Part shown: positions 1,951 through 33,223 of the stretch, piece by piece | How positions within the stretch are numbered: position 1 is the first letter of the stretch | Layout: every line of letters starts with the position of its first letter | DNA from: Clostridia bacterium | GTDB taxonomy: Bacteria > Bacillota > Clostridia > Christensenellales > Aristaeellaceae | Assembly (NCBI GenBank): GCA_017484085.1 | Contig: JAFUTW010000020.1 | Location: 1 to 64,000, forward strand | Length of the DNA: 64,000 bases | Direction of reading: 5' to 3' | The notes under the pieces: model-generated | Told to the model about the DNA's origin: nothing | Databases searched by the model: none | Seen by the model: only the letters and a program-made list of their open reading frames with translations | Translations under genes and position numbers: made by a program

Positions 1951-2649
1951 TTACCACCAGCTGTGGCGGAAGACGACCAGCTCTCCTTTGCTGTTGTGGG
2001 TGAGTCCGGTGTAGCCCGTTCCGGGCTCGCGGTACCACTTGGCTTTCAGCTCTTCTTCCGTGATCTTGCCTGCCTTGTACTGCTCCATCAGCTTCGCGTT
2101 GTAGCCGGGGTGATCCTTGGGGGCGCGGCGGTAGAAGTTCGGATGATGCGCGCTGTACTCTTCAAACTCGCTCTCCGTCATCCCCTCAAAGATCCGGATG
2201 TACTGCTTGGGCACATACCCTTCGCCGAAAACCGTACGGCACAGGTACTCGTCCCCTTCCTCGCCGATAACGACCACCGGCGCCCTGCGGATGAGTTCCC
2301 CGCGGTGGGGATACCGCTGGCCGGGGTTGATCCGCACGTTGACGCGCTCTCCCGTGCAGCAGGCATAGGCCGGGAAATTGGATTCTTCCGCTTTCTCCGG
2401 CTCTGCATCTTCCGTTTCAGCCGTTTCTTCGGGTTCCTCCGTCACAGTCTCCTGTGCCTCAGCGGTTTCTTCTGCCTCAGCGGTTTCTTCTGCCTCAGCG
2501 GTCTCCTCTGCCTCGGCAGTCTCCTGTACCCCGGCAGTCTCCTGTGCCTCGACGGTCTCTTCGTCTGTCGCAGTGATCTCCGCCAGCGCGGGAAGGACGG
2601 ACAGGGCCAGAGCCAGGGCCAGAGCAGCCAGAACAGCGCATTTCTTCAT
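1951..2649 (-). CDS. Secreted SH3-like domain protein with ETAEAE repeats (paralogue 2)
   Basis: A 232-residue exported protein. Residues 1-23 are a signal peptide ending ALA. Residues about 30-80 are a low-complexity acidic stretch built from six-residue ETAEAE-type units, matching 18-bp tandem repeats in the DNA; it probably acts as an extended spacer. The SH3-like domain follows (about 95-155: ERVNVRINPG, RRAPVVVIGE, GYVPKQYIRIF). A C-terminal segment (170-232) has no recognised domain. It starts 33 bp downstream of ackA on the same strand with no visible terminator between, so it may be read through from ackA. Function unknown; binding to envelope polymers is an inference from the SH3 fold. 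Confidence 0.7.
   Translation of the reverse strand: MKKCAVLAALALALALSVLPALAEITATDEETVEAQETAGVQETAEAEETAEAEETAEAEETAEAQETVTEEPEETAETEDAEPEKAEESNFPAYACCTGERVNVRINPGQRYPHRGELIRRAPVVVIGEEGDEYLCRTVFGEGYVPKQYIRIFEGMTESEFEEYSAHHPNFYRRAPKDHPGYNAKLMEQYKAGKITEEELKAKWYREPGTGYTGLTHNSKGELVVFRHSWW
2450..2560. repeat. 18-bp coding tandem repeat (ETAEAE units)
   Basis: Near-identical 18-bp units of the type TCAGCGGTTTCTTCTGCC repeat about five times inside the secreted protein gene. Such arrays change length by slippage in whole codons, so the spacer length may vary between strains. Confidence 0.8.
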
Positions 2650-17216: not shown

Positions 17217-20369
<3,153 letters not shown>

Positions 20370-20371
20370 TT

Positions 20372-21367
20372 ATGGAAAAAAGGATGATCGGCCGCAGCGG
20401 GATCACCGTGCCCACGCTCGGTCTGGGCTGCTGGGCCATCGGCGGCGGCAGCTGGTGGGGTGAAAACGACGATGCGGTTTCTATCGACACCATCCACCGC
20501 GCCTTTGATCTCGGCGTCCGGTGGATCGACACTGCGCGCGTCTATGGTTTCGGACACAGCGAAGAGGTCGTCGGCAAAGCGCTGCGCGGCCTGCCGCGCG
20601 ATCAGGTCGTCGTTTCCACCAAGTGCGCCCTGCAGTGGCGGAACGGCGAGGGCGATTACCACTTTTCCCGCGACGGACACGAGGTATACCGCAACCTGAC
20701 CCCCGCTTCCATCCGGCGCGATCTGGAGGACAGCCTGCTTGCGATGGGGCTTGATACCATCGACGTGCTGTACACCCACTGGCAGTGCAAGGACTATGGC
20801 CGCGTACCGGTCGCCGAAACCATGGGCGAGCTGCTGAAGATGAAGCAGGAAGGAAAGATCCGCGCGATCGGCGCCTCCAACGTCGATCTCAAGGTGCTGT
20901 CCGATTACGATCAGGCCGGCGAACTGGACGTCATTCAGGAAAAGCTGAGCATCCTGGACAGAAAACCGGAGGCCGAGCTGCTCCCCTTCTGCGAGGCGCA
21001 CGGCATCTCCCTGCAGACCTACTCCCCCATCGAGCAGGGGCTTCTCTCCGGCAAAGCGCCGGATGATTACCGGCCGAAGCCCGGCGAGGTGCGGGAGAAC
21101 CGCGTGTGGTGGCGCCAGGAGAACATCCCGAAGGTCAACCGGATGCTGCGCGGTTGGCAGGATCTCACGGAAAAATACGGCTGCACGACGGCCAACCTGT
21201 GCATCAAATGGAACAGCATGCTCTCCCCCGCCGTCCACGTGCTCTGCGGCGCCCGGAAGATCCCGCAGATCGAGGAGAACGTCCGCGCGCTGGAAATCCC
21301 GCTGACGCAGGCGGACTTCCTTCGCATGAAGCGGGATGCCGACGCGCTCATCGCGCAGCAGGGATAA
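20372..21367 (+). CDS. Aldo/keto reductase
   Basis: A 331-residue NAD(P)H-dependent oxidoreductase with the (beta/alpha)8 fold. The catalytic tetrad is visible as D53 and Y58 in WIDTARVYGFGHSEE, K84 in VVVSTKC and H136 in VLYTHWQ. The N-terminus RMIGRSGITVPTLGLGCW is typical of the YajO/Tas-like AKR11/12 groups. Substrate cannot be read from sequence; placement opposite lacZ suggests sugar or sugar-derived carbonyl metabolism, which is only a context argument. The ATG at 20372 follows AGGAGGGACCG. The gene is immediately followed by dispersed repeat modules at 21382. Confidence 0.9.
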   Translation: MEKRMIGRSGITVPTLGLGCWAIGGGSWWGENDDAVSIDTIHRAFDLGVRWIDTARVYGFGHSEEVVGKALRGLPRDQVVVSTKCALQWRNGEGDYHFSRDGHEVYRNLTPASIRRDLEDSLLAMGLDTIDVLYTHWQCKDYGRVPVAETMGELLKMKQEGKIRAIGASNVDLKVLSDYDQAGELDVIQEKLSILDRKPEAELLPFCEAHGISLQTYSPIEQGLLSGKAPDDYRPKPGEVRENRVWWRQENIPKVNRMLRGWQDLTEKYGCTTANLCIKWNSMLSPAVHVLCGARKIPQIEENVRALEIPLTQADFLRMKRDADALIAQQG

Positions 21368-21381
21368 AAACAGAGGACACC

Positions 21382-21554
21382 GAACCCCCAGTCAGCCTGC
21401 GGCTGACAGCCCCCTGTAAAGGGGGCCGCGCTGCGGCGCGAAGGAATCTATTTACGAAGCTTTGAGAAACTAAGCCTCTTTGTTCTCTTCGCCGCAAAGC
21501 GGCGCCTCCCATGAATAGGGGAGGTGGCACGGCACAGCCGTGTCGGAGGGGTTT
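21382..21554 (+). repeat. Composite dispersed repeat, copy 1 (modules A-spacer-B)
   Basis: Module A starts AACCCCCAGTCAG and folds into GTCAGCC/GGCTGAC, GCCCCCT/AGGGGGC and a GC-rich hairpin. An A+T-richer spacer (about 21435-21487, with TTTGAGAAACTAAG) leads to module B, made of GCCGC/GCGGC, CCTCCC/GGGGAGG and CACGGC/GCCGTG hairpins ending CGGAGGGGTTTAA. The same order, reversed, occurs at 30886-31145. No protein is encoded here. Confidence 0.85.
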
Positions 21555-21620
21555 AACCCCCAGTCAGCCTGCGGCTGACAGCCCCCTGTAAAAGGGGCCG
21601 CTCTGCGGCGCGAAGGATTG
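21555..21620 (+). repeat. Dispersed repeat, copy 2 (module A only)
   Basis: A second module A directly abuts module B of copy 1 through the junction GGAGGGGTTTAACCC (21545-21559). It ends about 15 bp before the -35 box of murA. Confidence 0.85.
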
Positions 21621-21633
21621 ATTGCCTCCCCAT

Positions 21634-21662
21634 TTGCCAACCTCCCCTGTCTTGTGTATAAT
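21634..21662 (+). promoter_or_regulatory. Promoter of murA
   Basis: TTGCCA (21634-21639), 17 bp, TATAAT (21657-21662), just downstream of the repeat. Confidence 0.8.
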
Positions 21663-21694
21663 AGGGGGACACCATTGTGAAAGGAGGGATGATC

Positions 21695-22963
21695 GTGGCT
21701 GCGGAACGGATGCTCATCTCGGGCGGACACCGGCTGGAAGGCGTCGTCCATGTCAGCGGCGGCAAGAACACGGCCGTTGCGATCATCCCCGCCACCATCC
21801 TGAGCGAAGCGCCCTGCATCGTGGAGAACCTGCCGGACATCGAAGACGTGCATGTCTCCATTGAGACGCTGAAGCACCTGGGCGCGCAGGTCGACTGGGA
21901 TCCCGCGCTGGGCACCATGCGTGTGGACGCCTCCACCATCTGCAGGACAGACGTGCCGCTGGAGCTCTGCCGCAGGATGCGCGCTTCCTATTACTACATC
22001 GGCGCGCTGCTTGCGCGTTTCGGCGAGGCGACGGTACCGCTGCCCGGCGGCTGCGACATCGGCAGGCGGCCGATCGACCAGCACATCAAAGGGCTGCGCG
22101 CGCTGGGCGCGGAGGTGGATAACCACGCCGGCACCGTATTTGCCAGGGCAAACGGGCTGATCGGGTCCGACATCTTCATGGATATGGTCACCGTCGGCGG
22201 CACAGTCAACGTCATGCTGGCCGCAACGCGCGCCCGCGGCGTCACCACCATCTACAATGCCGCAAAGGAGCCGCACATCGTCGATCTGGCGAACTTTCTG
22301 GGCTCCATCGGCTGCCGCGTAAAAGGCGCCGGAACGGACGTCATCCGTATTTACGGCGCGGAAAAGCTGGCTGCGCGGCGTTCCTACGCCGTTATCCCGG
22401 ACCAGATCGAGACCGGTACGCTGATGATCGCAGCGGCCGCCACGCACGGCGACGTGACGATCACCGGCTGCATCCCCACCCATATGGAAGCGCTGACCGC
22501 CAAGCTGCTGGAGATGGGCGCGCGCGTGGAAGAGAGAGATGACGCCATCCGCGTCCGCTCGCTGGGAGCGCACCGCGGCGTATCCTTCAAAACGCAGGTC
22601 TATCCGGGCTTCCCGACCGATCTGCAGCAGCCCATGAGTGCGCTGCTGTGCACCGCCATGGGTACCAGCACCATCGTGGAAAACATCTTCGAATCCCGCT
22701 TCCGCCACCTCTACGAGATGGAGCGCATGGGCGCCAATGTCCGTATTTACGAACAGACGGCCGTCATTCAGGGTATCCCGCAGCTGCACGCCGCGGCTGT
22801 GGAGGCTTCCGATCTGCGCGCAGGCGCGGCGCTGGTCATCGCCGGCCTCATGGCGCAGGGGACGACGGAGATCTACAACACGCACTTCATCGACCGCGGT
22901 TACGAGCACCTGGAAGAGAAGCTGAACAGCCTCGGCGCAAAGATTTCCCGCATCCGCGAGTGA
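21695..22963 (+). CDS. murA: UDP-N-acetylglucosamine 1-carboxyvinyltransferase
   Basis: A 422-residue enolpyruvyl transferase that makes the first committed peptidoglycan precursor from UDP-GlcNAc and phosphoenolpyruvate. SGGKNTAV carries the substrate lysine (K24), and PLPGGCDIGRRPIDQH carries the catalytic cysteine C120 that fosfomycin alkylates, so the enzyme should be of the fosfomycin-sensitive type. Length is normal. The GTG at 21695 is preferred because AAAGGAGGG ends 6 bp before it; GTG or ATG codons upstream overlap that site. Many Firmicutes have two paralogues (MurA, MurZ); which one this is cannot be settled here. Confidence 0.96.
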   Translation: MAAERMLISGGHRLEGVVHVSGGKNTAVAIIPATILSEAPCIVENLPDIEDVHVSIETLKHLGAQVDWDPALGTMRVDASTICRTDVPLELCRRMRASYYYIGALLARFGEATVPLPGGCDIGRRPIDQHIKGLRALGAEVDNHAGTVFARANGLIGSDIFMDMVTVGGTVNVMLAATRARGVTTIYNAAKEPHIVDLANFLGSIGCRVKGAGTDVIRIYGAEKLAARRSYAVIPDQIETGTLMIAAAATHGDVTITGCIPTHMEALTAKLLEMGARVEERDDAIRVRSLGAHRGVSFKTQVYPGFPTDLQQPMSALLCTAMGTSTIVENIFESRFRHLYEMERMGANVRIYEQTAVIQGIPQLHAAAVEASDLRAGAALVIAGLMAQGTTEIYNTHFIDRGYEHLEEKLNSLGAKISRIRE

Positions 22964-23001
22964 GTGTCCTTCGCCTTTCCGAAACCGTTTTGGCGTTTTT
23001 C

Positions 23002-23031
23002 TTGTCAATTGCTTGACACTCATGATATAAT
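23002..23031 (+). promoter_or_regulatory. Promoter of the glycogen phosphorylase gene
   Basis: TTGTCA (23002-23007), 18 bp, TATAAT (23026-23031). Confidence 0.75.
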
Positions 23032-23099
23032 ACCCGCCGTGTGCACGGGCTGTCCGTGAGCACGACGGGATTTTGATTTTATACCGGGAGGGTTTAAAT

Positions 23100-25559
23100 A
23101 TGCCGCTTAAAAGCGAATACAACAAGGAAGCCATAAAAGAGTCCATTCTGGACAAGCTGTTGCGCTATTACGGCTGCACGATCGATGAAGCCACACCCAA
23201 ACAGATCTATGCCGCCGTGGCGTCCACCGTGCGCGACCAGATCATGCTCAAATGGCGCTTTGAAAAGGAAGCGCGCCGCGCCACTCATGCCAAGCGCCTC
23301 TACTATCTCTCCATCGAGTTTCTGACCGGCCGCTGGCTGCACAACAACCTGCTGAACCTCTGCTCCACCAAGGAATATGAAGAAGCCTTCGCCGATCTGG
23401 GGCTCACCCTGCGCGGCGTGCTGCATGAGGAGCCGGAACCGGCGCTGGGCAACGGCGGCCTGGGCCGCCTTGCCGCCTGCTTCCTCGATTCCATGGCGAC
23501 GCTGGATCTGCCCGCGATGGGCAGCACCATCCGCTACGAGTACGGCCTGTTCCGCCAGCGCATCGTGGACGGACAGCAGGTCGAGGTGCCCGATGAGTGG
23601 CTGACCTACGGCAACGCGTGGGAGATCCCCACTCAGCGGGACGCCGTACGGATCCGTTTCGGCGGCAAGCTCGTCGAGCAGTGGGGCGTCGACGGCCACA
23701 ACTATGTGAGCCTGGAGGATACGGAAGACGTCATCGCCGTGCCGTATGACCTGCCCATCGTCGGCTACAACAGCGACGTCATCGACCGCCTGCGCACCTG
23801 GAGCGCCGTGCTGCCCAAGAACTTCAACCCGGACGAGCCCGTAGAGAGCTACGCCAAGCAGAATGACGACTCCATCGCGGCGCAGATCTCCAAGGTGCTC
23901 TATCCCGAGGACAACACGCCCGAGGGCAAAAAGCTGCGCCTCATGCAGGAGTACTTCCTGGTCAGCGCCACGCTGCAGTACGCACTGAAGGACTTCAAGC
24001 GCGTCAACGGCAACGACATGAGCCTGCTGCCGGAAAAGGTGGCTTTCCACATCAACGATACGCACCCCGCCATGGTCATCCCGGAGCTGATGCGCATCCT
24101 GGTGGATGAGGAGCACCTGCCCTGGGAGGAGGCGGAGCGCATCACCGAAGCGACGGTCGCCTACACCAACCACACCATCATGGCGGAAGCGCTGGAGAAG
24201 TGGCCGGAGAAAATGCTGCGGGAGACCCTGCCGCGCATCTACTCCATCATGCAGGAACTCAACCGCCGCCTCTGCCAATACCTGTTTGACTGCTTCCCCG
24301 GCCAGTGGGAGCGCATCGGGCACATGGCCATCCTCGCCTATGATCAGGCGCACATGGCCAATATGTGCATCGCCTATTCCCATTCCATCAACGGCGTTTC
24401 CCAGCTGCACGGCGACATCCTGAAGCGCAGCACTTTTGCCGATTACTACAGCATCATGCCGGAGAAATTCTCCGCGATCACCAACGGCATCACGCCGCGC
24501 CGCTGGCTGATGCTGGCCAACCCGGATCTCTCCGCCCTGCTGGACGAGGCGATCGGCCAGGGCTGGCGCACGGACCTCATGGAGCTGCAGAAGCTGATGC
24601 CTCTGGCGGATGACGCTGCCTTCATCGAACGGTTTGCCGCCATCAAGCACAGCAACAAGGAGCGCTTCTCCCGCTGGATCAACCGCCATCAGGGCCTCGT
24701 GCTGGATCCCGACAGCATGTTCGACGTACAGGTGAAGCGCCTGCACGAGTACAAGCGCCAGCTGCTCAATGCGCTGCACATCCTCGTGCTCTACAACCGC
24801 ATCTGCGACGATCCGAACTTCGTCATCTCGCCCCATACCTTCATCTTCGGCGCGAAGGCAGCCCCGGGATATCGCAGGGCTAAGGAGATCATCCACTTCA
24901 TCAACGTGCTCGCATCCAAGATCGAAAAGGACGAGCGCGCAAACAAGATGCTGAAGATCGCCTTCCTGCGCAACTACAACGTCTCCACCGCCGAGGTGCT
25001 GATCCCCGCTTCCGAGATCTCCGAGCAGCTGTCCACCGCCTCCAAGGAGGCCAGCGGCACCGGCAACATGAAGTTCATGATGAACGGCGCCGTAACCCTG
25101 GGCACGCTGGACGGCGCGAACGTGGAGATCGCGGATCTCGTCGGCCCCGACAACTGCTACATCTTCGGCATGCGCTCCAAGGAAGTGGAAGCCCTGTACG
25201 CAACGGGTTCCTACCGCTCCCTGGACATCTACGAGAACAACGCGGAGATCCGCCGCGCGCTCAACATGCTCTTCGACGGCTCGCTCACGCCCGACAACCC
25301 CAAGATGTTCGAAGGCCTCTACCGTGCCCTCGTCTTCTCGGACAACGGCGGCATGGCCGATCCGTATCTCGTGCTCAAGGACTTCGGCTCCTACCAGCAG
25401 GCACGCCAGCGCATGGCCCACGATTATGAGGATTCCCGCGCCTGGACGCGCAAGGAGATCATCAACGTCGCCCAGTCCGGCGTCTTCTCCTCCGACCGCA
25501 CCATCCGCGAATACAACGACCGGATCTGGCACCTCACGCCGCTGGTCAAAAACAAATAA
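23100..25559 (+). CDS. glgP: Glycogen/maltodextrin phosphorylase
   Basis: An 819-residue GT35 phosphorylase that releases glucose 1-phosphate from alpha-1,4 glucans using phosphate. The pyridoxal phosphate lysine is K658 in GTGNMKFMMNGA. Other family blocks are LGNGGLGRLAACFLDS, HINDTHPAM, NGITPRRWL and FDVQVKRLHEYKRQLLN. Length and sequence fit the full-length bacterial family; glycogen and maltodextrin specificity cannot be told apart here. The ATG at 23100 follows GGGAGGGTTTAAAT. It is transcribed alone, and no glgA/B/C genes are adjacent, so it probably serves both stored glycogen and imported dextrins released by the amylase. Confidence 0.96.
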   Translation: MPLKSEYNKEAIKESILDKLLRYYGCTIDEATPKQIYAAVASTVRDQIMLKWRFEKEARRATHAKRLYYLSIEFLTGRWLHNNLLNLCSTKEYEEAFADLGLTLRGVLHEEPEPALGNGGLGRLAACFLDSMATLDLPAMGSTIRYEYGLFRQRIVDGQQVEVPDEWLTYGNAWEIPTQRDAVRIRFGGKLVEQWGVDGHNYVSLEDTEDVIAVPYDLPIVGYNSDVIDRLRTWSAVLPKNFNPDEPVESYAKQNDDSIAAQISKVLYPEDNTPEGKKLRLMQEYFLVSATLQYALKDFKRVNGNDMSLLPEKVAFHINDTHPAMVIPELMRILVDEEHLPWEEAERITEATVAYTNHTIMAEALEKWPEKMLRETLPRIYSIMQELNRRLCQYLFDCFPGQWERIGHMAILAYDQAHMANMCIAYSHSINGVSQLHGDILKRSTFADYYSIMPEKFSAITNGITPRRWLMLANPDLSALLDEAIGQGWRTDLMELQKLMPLADDAAFIERFAAIKHSNKERFSRWINRHQGLVLDPDSMFDVQVKRLHEYKRQLLNALHILVLYNRICDDPNFVISPHTFIFGAKAAPGYRRAKEIIHFINVLASKIEKDERANKMLKIAFLRNYNVSTAEVLIPASEISEQLSTASKEASGTGNMKFMMNGAVTLGTLDGANVEIADLVGPDNCYIFGMRSKEVEALYATGSYRSLDIYENNAEIRRALNMLFDGSLTPDNPKMFEGLYRALVFSDNGGMADPYLVLKDFGSYQQARQRMAHDYEDSRAWTRKEIINVAQSGVFSSDRTIREYNDRIWHLTPLVKNK

Positions 25560-25570
25560 GAAAAACCGGC

Positions 25571-25612
25571 TGCTGCAAGCTCATGCCTTTGCTTGCAGCA
25601 ACCGTATCTTTA
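25571..25612 (+). terminator. Terminator-like hairpin after glgP
   Basis: TGCTGCAAGC (25571-25580) pairs perfectly with GCTTGCAGCA (25591-25600) over a 10-nt loop, followed by the modest T-rich ACCGTATCTTT. Confidence 0.6.
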
Positions 25613-25623
25613 TCAGCAATTGG

Positions 25624-25652
25624 TTGACATCTTTTTGTTTTCAGGATACAAT
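25624..25652 (+). promoter_or_regulatory. Strong promoter of a candidate small RNA
   Basis: Consensus TTGACA (25624-25629), 17 bp, TACAAT (25647-25652), with no gene before a terminator at 25711-25750. Confidence 0.82.
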
Positions 25653-25658
25653 GCAGAC

Positions 25659-25750
25659 AGACGGAGTGGTAGGTTAGGACTCCACCCTTCCGTTATTTAC
25701 GAGATGGATAGAACCGCCAACGGATTCCGGCCGTTGGCGGTTCGTGTTTT
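25659..25750 (+). ncRNA. Candidate stand-alone small RNA (about 90 nt)
   Basis: The segment has its own strong promoter and its own rho-independent terminator, and the next gene has a separate promoter at 25755-25783, so it looks like an independent transcript rather than only a leader. The 5' part folds as ACGGA-GUGG / CCAC-CCU-UCCGU around the loop UAGGUUAGGACU. A single-stranded linker (UAUUUACGAGAUGGAUA) precedes the 13-bp terminator stem. Three ANGGA sequences and one UAGGA are present, so binding by a CsrA-like protein is conceivable but unproven. It does not match the SRP, 6S, tmRNA or fluoride riboswitch patterns I know. A riboswitch controlling the transporter gene remains the alternative. 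Confidence 0.6.
25711..25750 (+). terminator. Terminator of the candidate small RNA
   Basis: GAACCGCCAACGG (25711-25723) pairs perfectly with CCGTTGGCGGTTC (25731-25743), followed by GTGTTTT. Confidence 0.88.
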
Positions 25751-25754
25751 ACCA

Positions 25755-25783
25755 TTGCTTCTCCATAATCCCGGCGCTATAAT
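25755..25783 (+). promoter_or_regulatory. Promoter of the NhaC-family gene
   Basis: TTGCTT (25755-25760), 17 bp, TATAAT (25778-25783), lying downstream of the small-RNA terminator. Confidence 0.7.
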
Positions 25784-25798
25784 AGCCTCATCTTTTGA

Positions 25799-27130
25799 TT
25801 GAAAGCGGTGTCTTTTTTGCTGGAAGGGATCACCCTTGCATCCTTCTGTGCTGTGCTGATCGGCTGTATCCTGCTTCAGGGGTCGCTGGTCGCGGCACTT
25901 CTGATCGGCCTTTGCATCTTTCTCGCCTACGGCAGACTGAAAGGCTTCTCTTTCCCCGCCCTCGGTGGGATGTGCCTCTCCGGGATCCGTTCGGCCCGCA
26001 ATATCCTCCTCAACCTCGTCTTTATCGGCACCCTTACGGCCGTGTGGCGTGCCGCAGGCACCATCCCCGTCATCGTCAGCTATGCTTCGCTGCTCATCCG
26101 GCCCAACGCTTTCCTGGTGATGACCTTTCTTTTGTGCGGCGGCGTATCCACCCTCACGGGAACGGCGCTGGGCACCGCTGCCACCATGGGCGTCATCTGC
26201 GCCACCATGGGCAGGAGCCTCGGCGTCGACATCCGCCTCATCGGCGGCGCGGTTCTCTCCGGCATCTTCGTCGGCGACCGCTGCTCTCCCGTTTCCACAA
26301 GCGCCCTGCTCACCGCCGAGCTTACCGGCACCGATATTTACCGCAATATCCGTGGGATGCTGCGCACCGCTTTCTTTCCCTTCCTTACAACAGCGGCCGT
26401 TTACGGCATCATCGGCTTTGTGACATCGCCGGGCGGCGAGGCGCTGGATCTGCGGCGCATCTTCTCGGCGGAATTCCGCCTCCTGCCTGTCTGCGTTCTG
26501 CCCGCGCTGGTCATCCTCGCGCTGTCCGCCTTCCGCGTGCCGGTCAAGATCGCCATGCTGTGCAGCATCACCGCTTCATTGCCGCTGGCGCTCTTCGTCC
26601 AGCGCATCCCGGCTGCCGCTCTCCTGCGCATGGTCGTCTTCGGCTTTACCGCAGGCGATCCGCAGGCTGCAGTGCTGATCAACGGCGGGGGCATCCTCTC
26701 CATGTTCCGCGTCTTCTGCATCGTCTGCCTCTCCTCCGCCTACGCCGGCATCTTCCGTGAGACCGGCCTGCTGGACGGGGAGACGCGCCTGCTCCGGCAC
26801 GTTTCAGAGCGGACCAACCCCTACGCTGCGATGTTCCTCACCTCGATTCCCGCTTCCATGATCGGCTGCAACCAGACGCTGGCCGTCATGCTCACCCATC
26901 AGCTCTGCAGCGGGCTTTATAAAGACCGAAATGCGCTGGCGCTCGATCTGGAAAACTCCGCCATCCTCATCGCGCCCCTCGTCCCCTGGTCCATCGCAGG
27001 CGGAGCGCCGCTTTCGGCCATCGGGGCGCCGCACAGCGCCATCCTGTTCGCCTTTTATCTCTGTCTGCTGCCCCTGAACCGCCTCTTCGGCAGTTTCCGG
27101 GCGCAGCGCCATAAGGGAGGAAATCTATGA
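25799..27130 (+). CDS. NhaC-family Na+/H+ antiporter-like transporter
   Basis: A 443-residue polytopic membrane protein with about ten to twelve hydrophobic segments. The signature GDRCSPVSTSALLTAELTGTDIY and the repeat motifs TGTALGTAATMGV and NNGCNQ-like SMIGCNQTLAVML place it in the NhaC branch of the ion transporter superfamily. Relatives exchange Na+ for H+ or import amino acids such as methionine, lysine or tyrosine, so the substrate is open. The start is uncertain: TTG at 25799 or GTG at 25808, both with a very short leader and weak ribosome binding site. It overlaps the YbjN-like gene by 4 bp (ATGA). Confidence 0.85.
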   Translation: MKAVSFLLEGITLASFCAVLIGCILLQGSLVAALLIGLCIFLAYGRLKGFSFPALGGMCLSGIRSARNILLNLVFIGTLTAVWRAAGTIPVIVSYASLLIRPNAFLVMTFLLCGGVSTLTGTALGTAATMGVICATMGRSLGVDIRLIGGAVLSGIFVGDRCSPVSTSALLTAELTGTDIYRNIRGMLRTAFFPFLTTAAVYGIIGFVTSPGGEALDLRRIFSAEFRLLPVCVLPALVILALSAFRVPVKIAMLCSITASLPLALFVQRIPAAALLRMVVFGFTAGDPQAAVLINGGGILSMFRVFCIVCLSSAYAGIFRETGLLDGETRLLRHVSERTNPYAAMFLTSIPASMIGCNQTLAVMLTHQLCSGLYKDRNALALDLENSAILIAPLVPWSIAGGAPLSAIGAPHSAILFAFYLCLLPLNRLFGSFRAQRHKGGNL

Positions 27131-27882
27131 GTATTATGGACAAGCTGAAGGACATGCTGCCCGGTTCCGCCAAAGAAAAAGAAGCCTCTCTGCCCGAAGC
27201 CGAGCAGATCGATGCGGACGCGGTCGGGTCCGCACCGGACGCCGCCGCAGATGAAAGCCCCAAGACCGGAGAAGCCGCCGTGACAGACGTGTCCGCCCAA
27301 GACGCAAACGAGACCGCAGCCACATCTTCCGCGACGGCGGATCATTTGACCATCCGCGTCGACTACGCCGAAGAGGAGGCCCGCAGGGAGACCGCTCCGG
27401 TTTCACAGCGCGACATCCTCGCCGCGCGCGTGATCGAGTGCCTCAAGGCGCGCAAGTTCCGCTATACGGTCCAGCGGGATGATGAAAAGATTCTGCACAT
27501 CACCATGAATATGATGATGAACGGCAAGCTGAACTCCTGCGTCATGCACGTCTTCGCCAACCCGACAGACATCGAGGCGGTCTGCGTATGCCCCATCAAG
27601 GCCACGGAGGACGTGCGCTCCCAGGTCGCGGAATACATCACGCGGGCCAACTGCATGCTGAAGTTCGGCAGCTTCCGGCTCGATTACCGCAGCGGAGAGG
27701 TGCGCTTCGCCTGCGCGCTCTCCGCCATCGAAGGAACGCCTTCCCTGAAGGACGTGGACCGCACCATCGCGATCCCCTTCCTTATGATGAACCGCTACGG
27801 CGACGGGCTGGTCAAAAGCCTCATGGGATACGGCAATCCGGAGGAGGATCTCGCGGCGATCCTCCGGCAGCCGCCGAAGTGA
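27127..27882 (+). CDS. YbjN-domain-like protein with acidic N-terminal tail
   Basis: A 251-residue soluble protein. Residues 1-95 are disordered-looking and rich in Ala, Glu and Asp. Residues about 100-245 resemble the YbjN fold, a type III secretion chaperone-like alpha/beta domain: LKARKFRYTVQRDDEKILHIT, then the landmark RANCMLKFGSFRLDYRSGEVRFACALS, and a closing helix NPEEDLAAILRQ. YbjN proteins are poorly characterised and proposed to act in signalling. The start ATG overlaps the transporter stop, with GGGAGG upstream, so the two are translationally coupled. Function unknown. Confidence 0.7.
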   Translation: MSIMDKLKDMLPGSAKEKEASLPEAEQIDADAVGSAPDAAADESPKTGEAAVTDVSAQDANETAATSSATADHLTIRVDYAEEEARRETAPVSQRDILAARVIECLKARKFRYTVQRDDEKILHITMNMMMNGKLNSCVMHVFANPTDIEAVCVCPIKATEDVRSQVAEYITRANCMLKFGSFRLDYRSGEVRFACALSAIEGTPSLKDVDRTIAIPFLMMNRYGDGLVKSLMGYGNPEEDLAAILRQPPK

Positions 27883-27989
27883 AAACAATTATTTTTCTGC
27901 TATTACTGGATAAATCAGGGCACTTTCCCTGAAAAAGGGCGAAATTCAAAGAAAAAAGAAGAAAGTTTGAGATTTTCCGGCTTTTTCTG

Positions 27990-28018
27990 TTGACACTGCC
28001 CCCCTGCTGCCGTATAAT
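27990..28018 (+). promoter_or_regulatory. Consensus promoter of the rpmG-secE-nusG-rplK-rplA operon
   Basis: TTGACA (27990-27995), 17 bp, TATAAT (28013-28018): a full consensus match, suiting a highly expressed operon. Confidence 0.92.
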
Positions 28019-28076
28019 AGCGGAGCATGTTTGGCAGGCGTATTTCGTCTGCCGTAAAGGATAAGGAGGTGCCAGG

Positions 28077-28241
28077 ATGGCTCAAGCCGGATCGCGCGTG
28101 AAGATCGTGCTGGCGTGCACGGAGTGCAAGCAGCGTAATTACAATACGATGAAGAACAAGCGCAACGACCCTGACCGTATCGAAATGCGCAAGTACTGCC
28201 GTTTCTGCAAGAAGCACACGGTTCATAAAGAAACCCGCTGA
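28077..28241 (+). CDS. rpmG: 50S ribosomal protein L33
   Basis: A 54-residue protein beginning [21 protein letters not shown]. Two cysteine pairs, CTEC (14-17) and CRFC (41-44), make the zinc-ribbon type of L33, and the tail [10 protein letters not shown] is characteristic. It belongs to the large ribosomal subunit near the E site. GATAAGGAGGTG lies just upstream. It is the first gene of the operon leading into secE, a conserved order in Firmicutes. Confidence 0.97.
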
Positions 28242-28275
28242 CGCTTACGCACAACGGAATAAGGATGTGAGAGAG

Positions 28276-28539
28276 ATGTCTGAGAAAAAGGAAGTCAAAA
28301 CGACGGAGAAGCCCGGCTTCTTCAGCCGCGCAGCCGCCTGGTGCAAGGCCCTCCCCGGCCGCATCCAGGGTGCTTTCAAGAACATGGCGGCCGAACTCAA
28401 AAAGGTCGCCTGGCCTTCCCGCGAGGATCTCATCAATTACTCCCTCGTCGTTATCGCCTTTGTCGTCGTGCTGGCCATTGTCGTCGGCGTGCTGGATACA
28501 GCCTCTTCCTTCCTCGTGAAGCAGCTGATCGCGCTGTAA
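28276..28539 (+). CDS. secE: Protein translocase subunit SecE
   Basis: An 87-residue SecE, the small essential subunit that clamps SecY in the protein-conducting channel. It has the usual amphipathic segment ELKKVAWPSREDLINYS (about 42-58) followed by a single membrane helix (about 58-80). The N-terminal 40 residues are basic and poorly conserved, as usual. The ATG at 28276 lies 10 bp after AAGGA; a GTG nine bases earlier is less well placed. It sits between rpmG and nusG in the standard order. Confidence 0.95.
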   Translation: MSEKKEVKTTEKPGFFSRAAAWCKALPGRIQGAFKNMAAELKKVAWPSREDLINYSLVVIAFVVVLAIVVGVLDTASSFLVKQLIAL

Positions 28540-28563
28540 GACGGGGCGAGAGGAGCAGAGGGT

Positions 28564-29085
28564 ATGGCACAGGAAAAAGCCCTTTGGTATGTCGTGCATA
28601 CCTATTCGGGTTACGAGAACAAGGTGGCGACCGATCTTCGCAAGACGGTTGAAAACAACGGCATGGGCGATCTCATTCAGGAGGTCATGGTACCGATTGA
28701 AGAGGTTGTGGAGATCCGCAACGGAAAGCCCCATACCATCCAGCACAAGATCTTTCCGGGCTATGTGCTGGTCAAGATGATCAAGACCACGGAGAGCTGG
28801 TATGTCGTGCGCAACACGCGCGGCGTCACGGGCTTTGTGGGCCCGGGAAGCGAGCCGATCCCGCTGACGGACGAAGAGTTCGAGCGGATGACCAGCTGCC
28901 AGGGGACGGTGCACATCGACCTGCAGGCCGGTGACAACGTCCGCATCAAGCAGGAGAATCTCGAGAATGCCATCGGCACGGTGGAGCAGGTCTTCGCCGA
29001 GGAACACAGGGTGCAGGTTTCCATCTCCATCCTGGGCCGCAAGACGATGGTGGAACTCGATATCTCGGAGGTGGAGCGCCTGTAA
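28564..29085 (+). CDS. nusG: Transcription termination/antitermination factor NusG
   Basis: A 173-residue NusG, which binds RNA polymerase and affects pausing, termination and transcription-translation coupling. The NGN domain starts WYVVHTYSGYENKVATDL and contains HKIFPGYVLVKM and WYVVRNTRGVTGFVG. The KOW domain (about 120-173) starts AGDNVRIKQENLENAIGTV and ends DISEVERL. GAGGAGCAGAGGGT precedes the ATG. The gene lies 24 bp after secE and is followed by a structured gap before rplK. Confidence 0.97.
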   Translation: MAQEKALWYVVHTYSGYENKVATDLRKTVENNGMGDLIQEVMVPIEEVVEIRNGKPHTIQHKIFPGYVLVKMIKTTESWYVVRNTRGVTGFVGPGSEPIPLTDEEFERMTSCQGTVHIDLQAGDNVRIKQENLENAIGTVEQVFAEEHRVQVSISILGRKTMVELDISEVERL

Positions 29086-29099
29086 GGCGCGCCACGACG

Positions 29100-29132
29100 C
29101 GTGGGAGGAACCGAGAGGTTCCGCGTAACCAC
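29100..29132 (+). promoter_or_regulatory. Structured leader element before rplK
   Basis: GUGG (29101-29104) pairs with CCAC (29129-29132) around the hairpin GGAACC-GAGA-GGUUCC (29107-29122). A similar GUGG-hairpin-CCAC element lies before rplA. L1 autoregulates the L11-L1 operon in E. coli; that these are L1 sites is an inference. Confidence 0.55.
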
Positions 29133-29152
29133 AGATTGAGGAGGAACAGACC

Positions 29153-29581
29153 ATGGCAAAGAAAGTTACAGGCATGATCAAGCTGCAGGTGCCGGGCGGA
29201 AAGGCCAATCCGGCGCCGCCTATCGGCCCCGCTCTGGGCCAGCACGGTGTTAACATCCCGGGCTTCTGCAAGGAGTTCAACGAGCGCACGAAGAACGACG
29301 TCGGCATGATTATCCCCGTCGTCATCACCGTGTATTCCGACCGCTCCTTCACCTTCATCACCAAGACGCCGCCCGTCCCGGTCCTCATCAAGAAGGCCCT
29401 GGGCATTGAGACCGCCAGCGGCGTGCCGAACAAGACGAAGGTCGGCCAGCTGACGCAGGCGCAGGTCCGCGAGATCGCGGAGAAGAAGATGCCCGACCTC
29501 AACGCCGGCAGCATCGAAGCCGCGATGAGCATGGTCAAGGGTACCGCCCGCTCCATGGGTGTCACCGTGGCCGAGGACTGA
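29153..29581 (+). CDS. rplK: 50S ribosomal protein L11
   Basis: A 142-residue L11, the expected length. It binds 23S rRNA in the GTPase-associated centre and is the site linked to thiostrepton action and RelA activation. Landmarks are the N-terminal [21 protein letters not shown] and [16 protein letters not shown], and the C-terminal RNA-binding domain with [13 protein letters not shown] and [24 protein letters not shown] gives the ribosome binding site. It lies between nusG and rplA as in most bacteria. Confidence 0.98.
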
Positions 29582-29614
29582 GCACAAACACCCATCCCCG
29601 CAGGGGATGAAGAC

Positions 29615-29646
29615 TGTGGAAGGCGCGAAGGCGCCGTTTGCACCAC
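29615..29646 (+). promoter_or_regulatory. Structured leader element before rplA
   Basis: GUGG (29616-29619) pairs with CCAC (29643-29646) around GGCGC-GAAG-GCGCC (29622-29635), repeating the layout of the element before rplK. A separate CATCCCC/GGGGATG hairpin lies at 29593-29609. Confidence 0.5.
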
Positions 29647-29661
29647 AAGGAGGAACGAAAA

Positions 29662-30351
29662 ATGAAACACGGCAAGAAGTATCTGGAGAGCGCAAAGCTC
29701 ATCGAAGCCGGCAAGCTCTACGATCCGGAAGAGGCTGTCAAGCTGGCCATGCAGACCGCTAAGTCCAAGTTCGACGAGACCATCGAGGTTTCCATCCGCC
29801 TGGGCGTCGATCCCCGTCAGGCCGATCAGCAGGTCCGCGGCGCTGTCGTGCTGCCGCACGGCACCGGCAAGACCGTTCGCGTGCTCGTCTTCGCCAAGGG
29901 CGATCAGGCCAAGGAAGCCGAGGCTGCCGGCGCGGATTATGTCGGCGCTGAGGAGCTCGTTCAGAAGATCCAGAGCGAGAACTGGTTTGAGTTTGACGTC
30001 GTCGTCGCGACCCCGAACATGATGGGTGTCGTCGGCCGTATCGGCCGTATCCTGGGCCCGAAAGGCCTCATGCCTAACCCCAAGAGCGGTACGGTCACCA
30101 TGGACGTCGCCAAGGCAATTTCCGAGATCAAAGCCGGTAAAGTCGAGTACCGTCTCGACAAGCAGGCCATCATCCACTGCCCGGTCGGCAAGAAGTCCTT
30201 CACCGCCGAGCAGCTGACCGAGAACCTGAACACCCTGATGGGCGCTATCGTCCGCGCGAAGCCCGCTGCTGCCAAGGGCACCTACCTGCGCAGCGTCGTG
30301 CTTTCCTCCACGATGGGCCCCGGCATCAAGGTCAACGGCCTCAAGTTCTGA
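29662..30351 (+). CDS. rplA: 50S ribosomal protein L1
   Basis: A 229-residue L1, the normal length. L1 forms the mobile stalk that guides deacylated tRNA out of the E site and often represses its own mRNA. It contains [20 protein letters not shown], the family signature, and the usual N-terminal [13 protein letters not shown] and the C-terminal [11 protein letters not shown]. The ATG at 29662 follows AAGGAGGAACG. It is the last gene of the operon, closed by a strong terminator at 30364. Confidence 0.98.
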
Positions 30352-30363
30352 TTAAGCCGCATA

Positions 30364-30402
30364 AAATCACCCGCTCCGTAAATGGGGCGGGTGATTTTTT
30401 TA
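30364..30402 (+). terminator. Rho-independent terminator of the rplKA operon
   Basis: AAATCACCCGC pairs with GCGGGTGATTT, followed by an uninterrupted run of T. Confidence 0.93.
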
Positions 30403-30440
30403 AGAAACAAATATTGCTTCGATTCTCAAAACTTCACTGA

Positions 30441-30507
30441 TCAATCCCCCGCGCCGCAGCGCGGCCCCTTTTGCAGGGGGCTGTCAGCTGTTGGCTGACT
30501 GAGGGTT
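30441..30507 (-). repeat. Dispersed repeat, copy 3 (module A), coding the DUF559 tail
   Basis: Read on the minus strand this is module A, AACCCTCAGTCAGCC with the CAGCCCCCTG...AGGGG and GC-rich hairpins. A spacer remnant continues to about 30403. The last 21 codons and stop of the DUF559 gene lie inside it. Confidence 0.85.
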
Positions 30508-30884
30508 TTCTTTTTAGTTTTCATCCGTTCCTTAATAGTCCTGTCAATTACCTGACAGACTTCATTGAAGTGGTTATCTACCTGCTCATTTGAAAACCGG
30601 ATAACTTCTACTAAGAATTCACCCAGCGCAGCGGTACGGTTGCGGTCACTGGCAAGTCCTTCCTCTGTATGGTGCTGGTTTCCGTCCAGCTCTATGATCA
30701 GCTTTGCGGCAGCACAATAGAAATCTGCAATATATACACCGATCATTCTTTGCCGATAGATTTTTACCGGATAATTCCGCAGGAAACGATACCAAAGTTC
30801 CCTTTCCTGATGTGTCGGGCTATGCCTGTTCTCCCGAGCATATGGCCTCAGTTTGTCACTGTATGCATAATTGTTTCTCGGCAT
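30441..30884 (-). CDS. DUF559 (Vsr/restriction-endonuclease-like) protein within a repeat
   Basis: A 147-residue protein of the DUF559 family, which shares the fold of very-short-patch-repair endonucleases. The core is SPTHQERELWYRFLRN (22-37), then YIADFYCAAAKLIIELDG (51-68) with D54, E66 and D68 as plausible metal ligands, and DGNQHH. Residues 127-147 (TLSQPTADSPLQKGPRCGAG and a final Asp) are translated from repeat module A. Its ribosome binding site, GGAGGGG 8 bp before the ATG, is the end of module B. The gene thus sits exactly between two repeat modules, and an empty version of that junction occurs twice in the window. Function unknown; a nuclease linked to repeat movement is a hypothesis. 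Confidence 0.85.
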   Translation of the reverse strand: MPRNNYAYSDKLRPYARENRHSPTHQERELWYRFLRNYPVKIYRQRMIGVYIADFYCAAAKLIIELDGNQHHTEEGLASDRNRTAALGEFLVEVIRFSNEQVDNHFNEVCQVIDRTIKERMKTKKKTLSQPTADSPLQKGPRCGAGD

Positions 30885-30885
30885 A

Positions 30886-31145
30886 TTAAACCCCTCCGTC
30901 ACGGCTTTCGCCGTGCCACTGGCGTAGGCCCTGCGGGCCGTACGTCCCCGGCTTTGCCGGGGATCGATGGCAAAGCCATCGACGAATCCTCCCCTACAAA
31001 GGGGAGGCGCCGCTTTGCGGCGAAGTAAATGAAGCGCCTTAGTTTTTCAAAGTTCCGCTGATCAATCCTTCGCACCGCAGTGCGGCCCCCTTTACAGGGG
31101 GCTGTCAGCCGCAGGCTGACTGAGGGTTAAACCCCTCCGTCACGT
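30886..31145 (-). repeat. Composite dispersed repeat, copy 4 (modules A-spacer-B long form, plus B fragment)
   Basis: On the minus strand the order is a 17-bp B end, module A (31128-31065), spacer (about 31064-31025) and a long module B (31024-30886). Module B here has extra hairpins (TCCCCGG/CCGGGGA, TCGATGG/CCATCGA) missing from copy 1. The B end meets module A through GGAGGGGTTTAACCC (31138-31124), identical to 21545-21559. It abuts the rsmG stop. Confidence 0.85.
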
Positions 31146-31146
31146 C

Positions 31147-31866
31147 CTACGCCCCCAGCGGCTTTTTCCCCGGCAGGCCTGCCCGCCTGGGATAGGCCCC
31201 GGGCGTCTTTTTTGTCTTGTCGGTGATAAGCAGCATATGGCCCCACTCCGGCCGGCCGGGAACGGGTGCGGGCACCGGTTCCCGCAGCGTGCCGCCGAGC
31301 AGGTAAGCCGCCCGTTTCGCCTGCTGCCATTCCTCCGCGACGCCCGGCCCTTTCCACGCGACGGCGATGCCGCCCGGCATGACGAAGGGCAGCGTCAGCT
31401 CCTGCAGCACGGCGGAATTCGCTACCGCGCGGGAGAGCGCCGCGTCATACCGCTCCCTGTGCGCTTCCATCCGGCCCGCATCCTCCGCGCGCGCGTGGAG
31501 CGTCTCGGCCGTAAGGCCCAGGCGCTTCAGAGTATTCTCCAGGAAGGCGATCCGCTTCTGCAGCGCATCCAGGAACGTCATTTTGAGGTCCGGGCGAAGG
31601 ATGAGCAGGGGCATGCCGGGAAAACCGGCGCCTGTCCCCACGTCGATGACCTTCGCATCCCTCTTCAAAAGGCCCAGCGCCAGCGGCGCGGCGCTGTCCA
31701 GATCGTGCCGGTCGATGCGCTCGTCCTCCTCCAGCACCGCAGTGAGGTCCATTCTTTGATTGTACTCGTCCAGGATGGCGTGAAAGGCCTCAAAGCGCTC
31801 CAGCGCCGCAGCGTCCGCCTCGATTTCCAGCGCAGCCAGCCCGCGCACCAGTCTCTCCCGATTCAT
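31147..31866 (-). CDS. rsmG: 16S rRNA (guanine527-N7)-methyltransferase
   Basis: A 239-residue RsmG (GidB). It methylates N7 of G527 in 16S rRNA using S-adenosylmethionine; loss gives low-level streptomycin resistance in other bacteria. The SAM-binding motif is VIDVGTGAGFPGMPLLI (73-89); other blocks are YNQRMDLTAV, FLDALQKRIAFLENTL and SRAVANSAVLQEL. The ATG at 31866 overlaps the ydcF stop by 4 bp. It is normally found beside mnmG and parA/parB near the origin, but here it ends a radC-ydcF operon and its stop abuts a dispersed repeat. Confidence 0.95.
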   Translation of the reverse strand: MNRERLVRGLAALEIEADAAALERFEAFHAILDEYNQRMDLTAVLEEDERIDRHDLDSAAPLALGLLKRDAKVIDVGTGAGFPGMPLLILRPDLKMTFLDALQKRIAFLENTLKRLGLTAETLHARAEDAGRMEAHRERYDAALSRAVANSAVLQELTLPFVMPGGIAVAWKGPGVAEEWQQAKRAAYLLGGTLREPVPAPVPGRPEWGHMLLITDKTKKTPGAYPRRAGLPGKKPLGA

Positions 31867-32456
31867 CGGCTCCTCCGGCTCTCCCACAGGAATTTCAGCC
31901 AGCTGAGGCCTTCCCGCAGGTGGTTTTTGATAAAGTATTCCGGCTTGCTCTCCGAGCCCCTTCCACTGGCCTCGATGCTGACCTGTCTGGCCAGCGCCAG
32001 CGCGCGGGGCACGTGGTAATCGCTGGTGACGATCAGGGCACGGCTGCAGCCTTCCGCCTCCATCATGGCTTTAGCGTTGATCAGGTTCTCCCGGGTGTTG
32101 ATGGAAGCGGTTTCCGCCAGCACGTCCGCATCACGGCACCCTTTGGCGATCAGCCACGCGCGCATCACGGCACCTTCCGCTGCCGGCTCGTTTGCGCCGC
32201 GGCCGCCGCAGCAGATGATGGGCCTTTGCTTTTCCATGTAGGCCTCCAGCGCCACGCCCATCCGGCGCTCCAGCGCCACGCTGGGCGTCCCGTCCTCTTT
32301 CACCTGCGCGCCCAGAACGAGGATGACGTCCGTCTCCCCTTCCGGCGGCAGATGGGTCTCCATCCAGAAGACGCAGAGGATGAGCGCCGCGGCCGACAGC
32401 AGCGCCGCAGCCGCGAGGATCGCCAACGCCATTGCCAAACGCCTGCCTTTCATCAT
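31863..32456 (-). CDS. YdcF/DUF218-family membrane-anchored protein
   Basis: A 197-residue protein with one N-terminal membrane segment (about 8-32) and a DUF218 domain. Landmarks are DVILVLGAQVKEDGTPSVALERR, PIICCGGRGANEPAAEGAVM and LIVTSDYHVPRALALA. Relatives (YdcF, ElyC/SanA) act at the envelope; ElyC affects lipid carrier and peptidoglycan metabolism, SanA vancomycin resistance. The specific role here is unknown. The ATG at 32456 overlaps the radC stop by 4 bp, and its own stop overlaps rsmG by 4 bp, so the three genes are tightly coupled. Confidence 0.85.
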   Translation of the reverse strand: MMKGRRLAMALAILAAAALLSAAALILCVFWMETHLPPEGETDVILVLGAQVKEDGTPSVALERRMGVALEAYMEKQRPIICCGGRGANEPAAEGAVMRAWLIAKGCRDADVLAETASINTRENLINAKAMMEAEGCSRALIVTSDYHVPRALALARQVSIEASGRGSESKPEYFIKNHLREGLSWLKFLWESRRSR

Positions 32457-33223
32457 TTGCTCTCCGCCTCCCATCCCAGCCCCGGGACCTGACGGGTCAG
32501 TGATGCCGCGCTGCCCGCGCGCAGACTCTCCCCGGAGATCCTTCCGTTTTTGATCAGCCCGCCGGAGGCCATGGAATACGCGGTATCCCTGCCGATGATG
32601 ACGTGGTCCAGCGCACGGATGCCCACGACGCCCAGCGCATCCACCACGCGGCGCGTGGTTTCGATATCCGCTGATGAAGGCTGCGGCGTGCCGCCGGGAT
32701 GGTTGTGCGCCAGAATGACGGCGTGCGCGTGCGCCTGCAGCGCCTGCTCCACCACCTCTCTGGGGTACAGGGAGACTTCGTCCAGCGTCCCCCTGCGCAG
32801 CAGCGCCGCGCGGAGCACCCGGCCGGACAAATCCAGGCAGATGAGGAAGACGCGCTCCTCCTGAGCTCCCGCAAACAGCGTCCTGGCATAGCGCACGGTG
32901 GAGGCGGGATCGCTCAGCGCAGGCCTCTCGCCCAGCCGGCTCTGCTCATACCGGCCCATCAGCTGGGGCATCAGCGACAGCAGGGTCGCCGCGTTTTCTC
33001 CCACCCCGGCGACCGAAAGCAGCGACGCGCGGTCCGCCTCCAGTACGCCGGACAGGGAGCCGAAGCGCACGAGCAGCTCTGCCGCCAGCGGACTTACGTC
33101 CTTCTGCGGGATGGCGTACATCAGCAGGAGTTCCAGTGTCTCCCTTTCCGTAAAGGATGCAAGGCCCTCCCGTAAAAAGCGCTCCCGCAGCCGCTGCCTG
33201 TGCCCTGTATGTACATCGCTCAA
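32453..33223 (-). CDS. radC: RadC-family JAB/MPN protein
   Basis: A 256-residue RadC-like protein. The N-terminal helix-hairpin-helix region (residues about 60-90, VAGVGENAATLLSLMP) is followed by a JAB metalloprotease-like domain with the metal motif HNHPGGTPQPSSAD (H173, H175, D186). Despite the name, a role in recombinational repair is not established; the activity is undefined. The TTG at 33223 is chosen because AAGGAGG ends 8 bp before it; upstream ATG codons would overlap the SNF2 gene end. It lies 13 bp after that gene and starts the chain of 4-bp overlaps with ydcF and rsmG. Confidence 0.88.
   Translation of the reverse strand: MSDVHTGHRQRLRERFLREGLASFTERETLELLLMYAIPQKDVSPLAAELLVRFGSLSGVLEADRASLLSVAGVGENAATLLSLMPQLMGRYEQSRLGERPALSDPASTVRYARTLFAGAQEERVFLICLDLSGRVLRAALLRRGTLDEVSLYPREVVEQALQAHAHAVILAHNHPGGTPQPSSADIETTRRVVDALGVVGIRALDHVIIGRDTAYSMASGGLIKNGRISGESLRAGSAASLTRQVPGLGWEAESK

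Follow-up and report, generated by a model that had tools for sequence, protein, structure and literature searches.

DUF559 nuclease genes between hairpin repeat arms as a probable REP-like mobile element

The DUF559 gene found in the window (the whole stretch of 64,000 nucleotides that was analysed) is probably the nuclease gene of a REP-like mobile element with the form arm, DUF559 gene, arm. Hairpin arms occur beside DUF559 genes far above control levels and are mostly inverted, the tails of the arms are coupled to the clade of the gene and the abundance of the arms to its presence, and one orthologous site differs in presence and absence between two genomes. The hallmarks of REP/RAYT elements are present, except that the HUH transposase is replaced by a Vsr-like nuclease. 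Short palindromic repeats are dispersed through many bacterial genomes, and DUF559 may be the driving force behind one class of this repeat DNA.

The DUF559 locus and the gene-less repeats of the window

The product of the window gene matches PF04480 (DUF559), and no other Pfam family, with E 1.6e-24 and 86.3 bits against a curated cut-off of 20.6, and the nearest solved structure by sequence is 3hrl, an 'Endonuclease-Like Protein' (E 6.1e-11). Alignments of 14 and 43 sequences (window protein included) show invariant E, D, E-x-D and H columns, as expected of a PD-(D/E)XK nuclease, and DUF559 is called a PD-(D/E)XK domain in an excerpt of PMC1829167. From its sequence, the protein is predicted to be a stand-alone, likely DNA-cutting, Vsr-like PD-(D/E)XK nuclease. 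It has no match at E≤0.01 to TIGR00632, the Vsr family model, and its match to NF007294 (E 3.2e-17) is below that model's cut-off, the E. coli ycjD product giving E 1.5e-80 with the same model.

Read on the minus strand from 31145 to 30417, the locus consists of a B tail, an A arm, a spacer, a B arm, the DUF559 gene and another A arm (Table 1). A and B are hairpin arms that differ in sequence and are oppositely oriented, with their tails facing the DUF559 gene: the B arm, read towards the gene, ends in ...GGCACGGCgaaaGCCGTGACGGAGGGGTTT, and the A arm begins with AACCCTCAGTCAGCC. The first-pass annotation had placed the gene between repeat arms at a split junction, and this was confirmed, since on the minus strand GGAGGGGTTTAAT abuts the ATG (30884) of the PF04480 gene and, after the ORF, AACCCTCAGTCAG opens the A arm at 30507, into which the ORF extends. 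By reading, GGAGGGG of B lies at Shine-Dalgarno distance from the ATG, and the B tail before the gene may double as the Shine-Dalgarno sequence. The inverted-repeat match between the window's own A and B arms is weak (score 15), and what they share is the tail and the architecture. Every arm tested folds as single-stranded DNA into three or more stem-loops, with fold z values from -3.35 (30445-30507, in the downstream A arm) to -6.77, and these folds were matched by 0 or 1 of 200 shuffles. The downstream A arm is 82% identical over 91 nt to 31038-31128. An Rfam scan of window positions 20000-32500 gave no family reaching its gathering score, and PADLOC returned weak matches only.

The composite repeat at 21383-21622 (plus strand) has the order A, spacer, B, A and contains no gene. 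The tail-to-tail junction GGAGGGGTTTAACCC occurs in exactly two copies in the window, one on each strand, both gene-less as originally reported, with a shuffled expectation of 0.09 (at most two mismatches) and two or more copies in 1 of 100 shuffles. The further description of both junctions as parts of full composite repeats stood for the shared 15-bp string, whereas at 31124-31145 B is present only as its tail. Longer homology surrounds the junctions (21539-21622 against 31061-31144, 84 nt at 94%; 21555-21622 against 30440-30507, 68 nt at 88%). In the gene-less A-spacer-B units the tails point outward, and at the gene-less junctions they stand tail to tail.

Table 1. Coordinates of the repeat arms, junctions and DUF559 gene in the window
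Feature	Position	Strand	Remarks
A arm of gene-less composite repeat	21383..21445	+	
Spacer and B arm of gene-less composite repeat	21455..21554	+	fold z -4.47 for 21478-21554
Gene-less tail-to-tail junction GGAGGGGTTTAACCC	21545..21559	+	exact string match
Second A arm, after junction	21555..21622	+	21555-21617 97% identical to 21383-21445
A arm downstream of DUF559 gene and start of spacer, AACCCTCAGTCAGCC...	30417..30507	-	overlapped by ORF 3' end
DUF559 gene (predicted Vsr-like PD-(D/E)XK nuclease)	30441..30884	-	ATG at 30884, stop 30443-30441; domain 30534-30854; C-terminus encoded by A arm
B arm upstream of DUF559 gene	30886..30990	-	four stem-loops, ends in GTGACGGAGGGGTTTAA; fold z -6.77
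Spacer and outer part of A-spacer-B unit	30988..31057	-	81% complementary to 21455-21524
Second A arm and start of spacer	31038..31128	-	fold z -4.91 for 31061-31128
Gene-less tail-to-tail junction GGAGGGGTTTAACCC	31124..31145 (15-bp string 31124-31138)	-	B present as tail only

A few minor observations concern the same region. The B tail at 31130-31147 overlaps the stop codon of a minus-strand ORF ending at 31147. The composite repeats at 21383-21622 and 30417-31145 coincide with synteny breakpoints relative to G011, the closest relative. A 9.4-kb murA-to-rplA block lies between these two inverted copies, and a rearrangement may have occurred through them, misassembly of the metagenome-assembled genome being the alternative (the names rplA, rsmG, murA, obg and TM2 gene are those that we take to apply from reading the sequence). 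Six 18-bp-spaced direct repeats lie within predicted ORFs at window positions 2447-2574.

Hairpin arms at DUF559 genes in the order and beyond

PF04480 was searched in 60 relatives, 21 of which have a match, and in 396 genomes of the window's order, 139 of which have one; the 69 order genomes whose best match has E≤1e-10 (counted by hand) are taken as carrying a stand-alone DUF559. The fetched loci comprise 115 distinct genes, or 114 after removal of L033, which lies inside a long protein; all four PF04480 matches inside long proteins (L033-L036) were excluded from the tests. In the inverted-repeat test, carried out on the 110 of 114 order loci with full flanks (the own genome's second copy, L001, at a contig end, is unscored), a flank-to-flank score of at least 20 was reached by 68 of 110 loci (62%), against 13% of 2185 permuted pairs and 3% of 406 same-contig control windows. 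At L123 the arms are near-identical over about 180 bp, while 34 of the 110 loci score below 18 and the window's own copy, at 15, stands outside the 68 inverted-arm loci. A stem of at least 7 bp within 150 nt of the chosen start or domain end, on either side, is found at 96 of 114 loci against 17% of 678 control pairs, the remaining 18 having none on either side. For stems of at least 8 bp within the same distance the figures are 67% upstream and 56% downstream (n=113 each) against 3.6% of 532 control windows, and beside other genes of the same loci strong hairpins occur in about 10% of flanks. The association of DUF559 with hairpins is therefore general and not peculiar to the window. The earlier proposal of a nuclease gene tied to a dispersed repeat is borne out by these counts, as most DUF559 homologues examined, rather than lying mostly outside repeats, have hairpin arms alongside.

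Similar arms are found outside the order. A set of named loci, the best 80 of 544 confirmed matches and mostly from Proteobacteria, was examined in the same way, 79 being usable for the inverted-repeat test. Scores of at least 20 were obtained in 72% of the 79, against 25% of permuted pairs and 16% of controls, and scores of at least 30 in 56%, against 4% and 1%, respectively. Stems of at least 8 bp, measured here from the ends of the tblastn match, are present in 70% of upstream (n=80) and 71% of downstream flanks (n=79) compared with 4.6% of 483 controls, and in 70 of these loci about 10% of the flanks of other genes carry strong hairpins. The string CCTCACCC occurs in 39% of 140 flanks (70 of the 80 named loci) and in 0.4% of controls. 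In a plasmid collection, 31 records have a DUF559 match, and in all 14 that were fetched hairpin repeats stand on one or both sides of the gene, as judged by reading and with no statistical test; the hosts are Azospirillum, Sinorhizobium, Shinella, Sphingomonas, Novosphingobium, Qipengyuania, Photobacterium, E. coli, Neisseria, Deinococcus, Synechocystis and Pseudanabaena. In two plasmids, DUF559 and its repeats lie inside an operon, between sufB and sufC in Sphingomonas (L137) and between paaD and paaZ in Deinococcus (L140).

Coupling of arms and gene, and the obg site

Each arm ends in a short tail, and the two tails of a locus tend to agree. With a first regular expression, which misses AGAGGG-type tails and has a background of 13.6% of 587 windows, an upstream tail was found in 65 and a downstream tail in 59 of the 114 order loci; both are present in 37, and in 18 of these all six letters are identical (shuffled mean 3.2, maximum 10 in 5000). 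The constant insert boundaries expected in the first-pass annotation were not recovered: the distance between the chosen ATG and the start of the tag that precedes the upstream tail is 13-25 nt in 27 of the 65 loci and as much as 196 nt in the others, and some DUF559 copies, such as L001, have no right arm.

A wider regular expression gave a tail in 92 of 114 loci, 77 of which were sorted into four tail classes and compared with a tree of the 114 DUF559 domains, 63 of whose 111 inner branches are open. Tail class needs 20 changes on this tree (77 rows) against 37.2 when shuffled, with 0 of 200 shuffles as low, in a test that ignores relatedness. Clustering is seen for each of the classes AGGG, ATGA and AGAG (0 of 500 shuffles as low), whereas AAGG hardly shows it (11 changes against 13.0 shuffled, 33 of 500 as low). 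For host family the count on the same tree is 34 changes, a figure that is only indicative given that it has a different number of states than tail class. Within the clade with the GAGGGATTG tail, L117 aligns arm to arm with seven members at 76-88% DNA identity, and the members that align as a whole arm-gene-arm unit come from host families f1, f10, f23 and f26; in L084, L106 and L018 identity falls to 67-70%, and the left arm differs in L018 and L084. As the tail follows the DUF559 tree, the repeat sequence appears to coevolve with the gene, and joint inheritance could also give the pattern. Judging from the tree, gene and arms appear to have been transferred jointly and horizontally between hosts. 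Such joint transfer explains the correspondence of clade and tail as well as specificity does, and either would make gene and arms one unit.

The abundance of gene-less arms goes with the presence of DUF559. Repeat copies were counted by pattern searches, and the abundance tests ignore relatedness. The strict canonical B pattern is found in 17 of the 396 order genomes and the reversed pattern in none; stand-alone DUF559 is present in 14 of these 17 and in 55 of the 379 without the arm (Fisher 3e-9, relatedness ignored), and, after removal of the four genomes whose sole arm adjoins the gene, in 10 of 13 (1.6e-6). The richest genomes, G226 with 29 copies and G366 with 27, have five and four DUF559 matches, respectively. 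The two do not always coincide: with the strict pattern the canonical arm is absent from 55 of the 69 DUF559 genomes, and three genomes (G021, G253, G395) have canonical arms and no stand-alone DUF559 detected. Within the genus, left-arm matches number 0, 0, 1, 2, 3, 5, 7, 10 and 15 in nine DUF559 genomes, gene-adjacent ones having been removed by hand, against 0 in 18 of the 20 genomes without DUF559 and 1 and 8 in the others (p 1.8e-4, relatedness ignored), G012 and G014, whose DUF559 matches all lie in long ORFs, being counted as without. The genome with 8 matches is G011, in which no DUF559 was detected; where arms occur without the gene, it may have been missed in incomplete genomes, or the arms may outlive it. 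In the own genome, 20 arm-tail matches were counted against 3 for the reversed pattern.

Mobility, which the first reading of the window had suspected, is indicated at one orthologous site, filled in the own genome (G000) and empty in G011. The second DUF559 copy of G000 (L001) lies between a TM2-like gene and obg, which are adjacent in G011, where about a dozen bases separate the shared sequences; about 530 bp, comprising left arm and gene, are absent from G011, which has neither arm nor gene there. The left boundary of the insert is the AACCC arm end and the right boundary is near the gene end; a right arm is lacking, and no target duplication is visible. Among the 21 other genus genomes with an obg match (G011 included), none has a DUF559 match on that contig, and by reading no such arm is seen in the obg leader of six further relatives. 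Most simply, the difference is a gain of arm and gene in G000. As G011 lacks the repeat as well as the gene at this clean pair, the idea of a cassette entering a fixed, pre-existing empty junction is not supported here. A second match to the start of obg, at 90% identity, was seen at a contig end (G000:C48:1-122) and is perhaps a strain variant or a contaminant of the assembly. Among 16 of the 17 genus copies, flanks are common to only one pair (L031/L032), two flanks being without data. Two other candidate filled and empty pairs were set aside, as, for the window locus, the relatives' matches to rplA and rsmG are on different contigs and, for L039, so are the matches to the left and right flanks.

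Proposed element, rival explanations and known relatives

The proposed element would work as follows. An arm would consist of consecutive stem-loops closed by a short, gene-facing tail; the ribosome-binding site seems to lie in the upstream tail, and the final codons would often come from the downstream arm. DUF559 would recognise the hairpin or tail of its own family and cut or nick there, and host replication or repair would then copy the unit, or the arms alone, to new places. Arms acting as DNA hairpins and arms acting merely as sequence are both compatible with this scheme. The gene-less arms would be non-autonomous derivatives, as REPs are to RAYTs.

The closest parallel is offered by the REP/RAYT systems (REPtrons, REPINs), described in excerpts of Nunvar 2010 (PMC2817692) and Di Nocera 2013 (PMC3733652). 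As far as the excerpts describe them, these too have a gene between two inverted palindromic repeats and dispersed gene-less copies, with a repeat sequence that tracks the gene clade and an abundance that tracks the presence of the gene. They differ in using a HUH tyrosine transposase instead of DUF559, and the DUF559 arms, unlike theirs, have two or more stem-loops each and a clade-linked tail and are not on both sides in every copy. The DUF559 element thus matches the features of RAYT/REP without their defining enzyme, and works like a REPtron without being a member. A likeness to CGTC-tagged REPs was also considered. In an excerpt of Di Nocera 2013 (PMC3733652), GTAG REPs are linked to a dedicated enzyme and the CGTC class is described as without one; its short, often paired, tagged palindromes resemble the arms, and many B arms hold CCGTCA at the stem, but the tag of the DUF559 arms is partly paired. 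Membership of the B arms, which read CCGTCACGGC..., was rejected, as an unpaired CGTC directly before a stem of at least 5 bp occurs in 0.4% of 228 flanks. No report tying DUF559 to palindromic repeats was found in the passages on DUF559 of the open-licence PMC papers searched.

The same observations can be read as homing, in which the nuclease would cut a gene-less tail-to-tail junction and be copied in by repair with the arms as homology, so that the arms are the target and not part of the element. The same junction with and without the gene in one window and the frequent gene-less arms of the own genome are what homing predicts, and a cyanobacterial DUF559-containing gene, discussed with inteins in an excerpt of PMC9403480, is assigned there to the EDxHD homing endonucleases, a family that shares the selfish behaviour. 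A homing-like mode is conceivable on account of this report, but the DUF559 element, unlike the EDxHD case, interrupts no host gene, and its arms accompany the gene. The obg site, where G011 has neither arm nor gene and six more relatives have armless leaders, makes homing into a gene-less junction less likely, even if one site is thin evidence; the variable insert boundaries and the history that tail and gene share across host families also argue against it, and we consider homing unlikely overall. Also rather improbable is a reading in which DUF559 is retained for a cellular role, as a short-patch repair nuclease of the Vsr type, and the repeats are intergenic sequence that merely accumulates around it. 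Such a role would fit the relationship to structure 3hrl (E 6e-11), the listing of a DUF559 gene in the expression-change table of a Deinococcus N4-cytosine methylation mutant (excerpt of PMC6712171), and Caulobacter VsrA, a DUF559 protein on which the SOS response of a cytosine-methyltransferase mutant depends; an excerpt of the latter study (PMC12907096) shows by genetics that such a protein is able to trigger a DNA-damage response, and its authors propose a mismatch-repair nuclease. It does not account for strong hairpins in 56-71% of DUF559 flanks against about 10% for other genes of the same stretches; two-sided tail matching and clade-specific tails are unexpected of a passenger, and presence in the order is patchy (69 of 396 genomes).

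The repeats might finally be moved by another enzyme, such as a RAYT or IS200-type Y1 transposase, with DUF559 as cargo. The transposase search covered Y1 only, and the gene between the arms is DUF559 by the design of the search, which leaves room for DDE transposases and for other cargo. Y1 is present in 7 of the 16 genomes checked, and an excerpt of PMC12308824 describes a Legionella segment in three copies, a recombination hotspot, that holds a transposase together with DUF559, so that another enzyme may move DUF559 there. Yet no Y1 match was obtained in 9 of the 16 genomes, including the own genome (80.75% complete), although all nine contain one or more arm matches, those of G010 and G013 lying next to the DUF559 gene only. 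The five strongest Y1 genes, read from 11 matches, carry their own hairpins of other sequence; single arm-like tags lie near several Y1 genes and never as a pair, and of two identical Y1 copies in G226 one has such a tag about 290 bp beyond its domain and the other has none there. Movement of the repeats by such an enzyme seems very improbable, and DUF559 as the nuclease of the element itself is preferred.

On the preferred reading, there may be, and this is put forward tentatively, a second, independent kind of REP-type mobile element that occurs in several bacterial phyla and whose hairpin repeats are spread by one Vsr-fold nuclease instead of a known transposase or recombinase. To our knowledge, no mobiliser is known for repeats of the CCCTCACCCC...CTCTCCC-GGGAGAG and CCGTCACGGC types, a share of which would be accounted for if this is true, and a simple two-part element of nuclease and hairpin arms would be added to known mobile DNA. 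If DUF559 serves these repeats, a nuclease family listed as of unknown function would gain a biological role.

The question, if the proposal is true, would be testable in E. coli with ycjD, which lies between sapF and fabI and belongs to the same protein family as the window gene. Palindromic repeats, which are presumably box C, follow ycjD as repeats follow the window gene, whereas upstream, by reading, there is only a terminator-like hairpin and no arm. As a clean empty site the sapF-fabI interval was rejected, since in the three other alleles read (L227, L228 and L230, compared with L229) an efflux operon with genes for an MFS and an outer-membrane efflux protein replaces the ycjD interval, which suggests a region where alleles are swapped. 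In 3362 of 5426 genomes, the ycjD form of the interval is covered at 80% or more.
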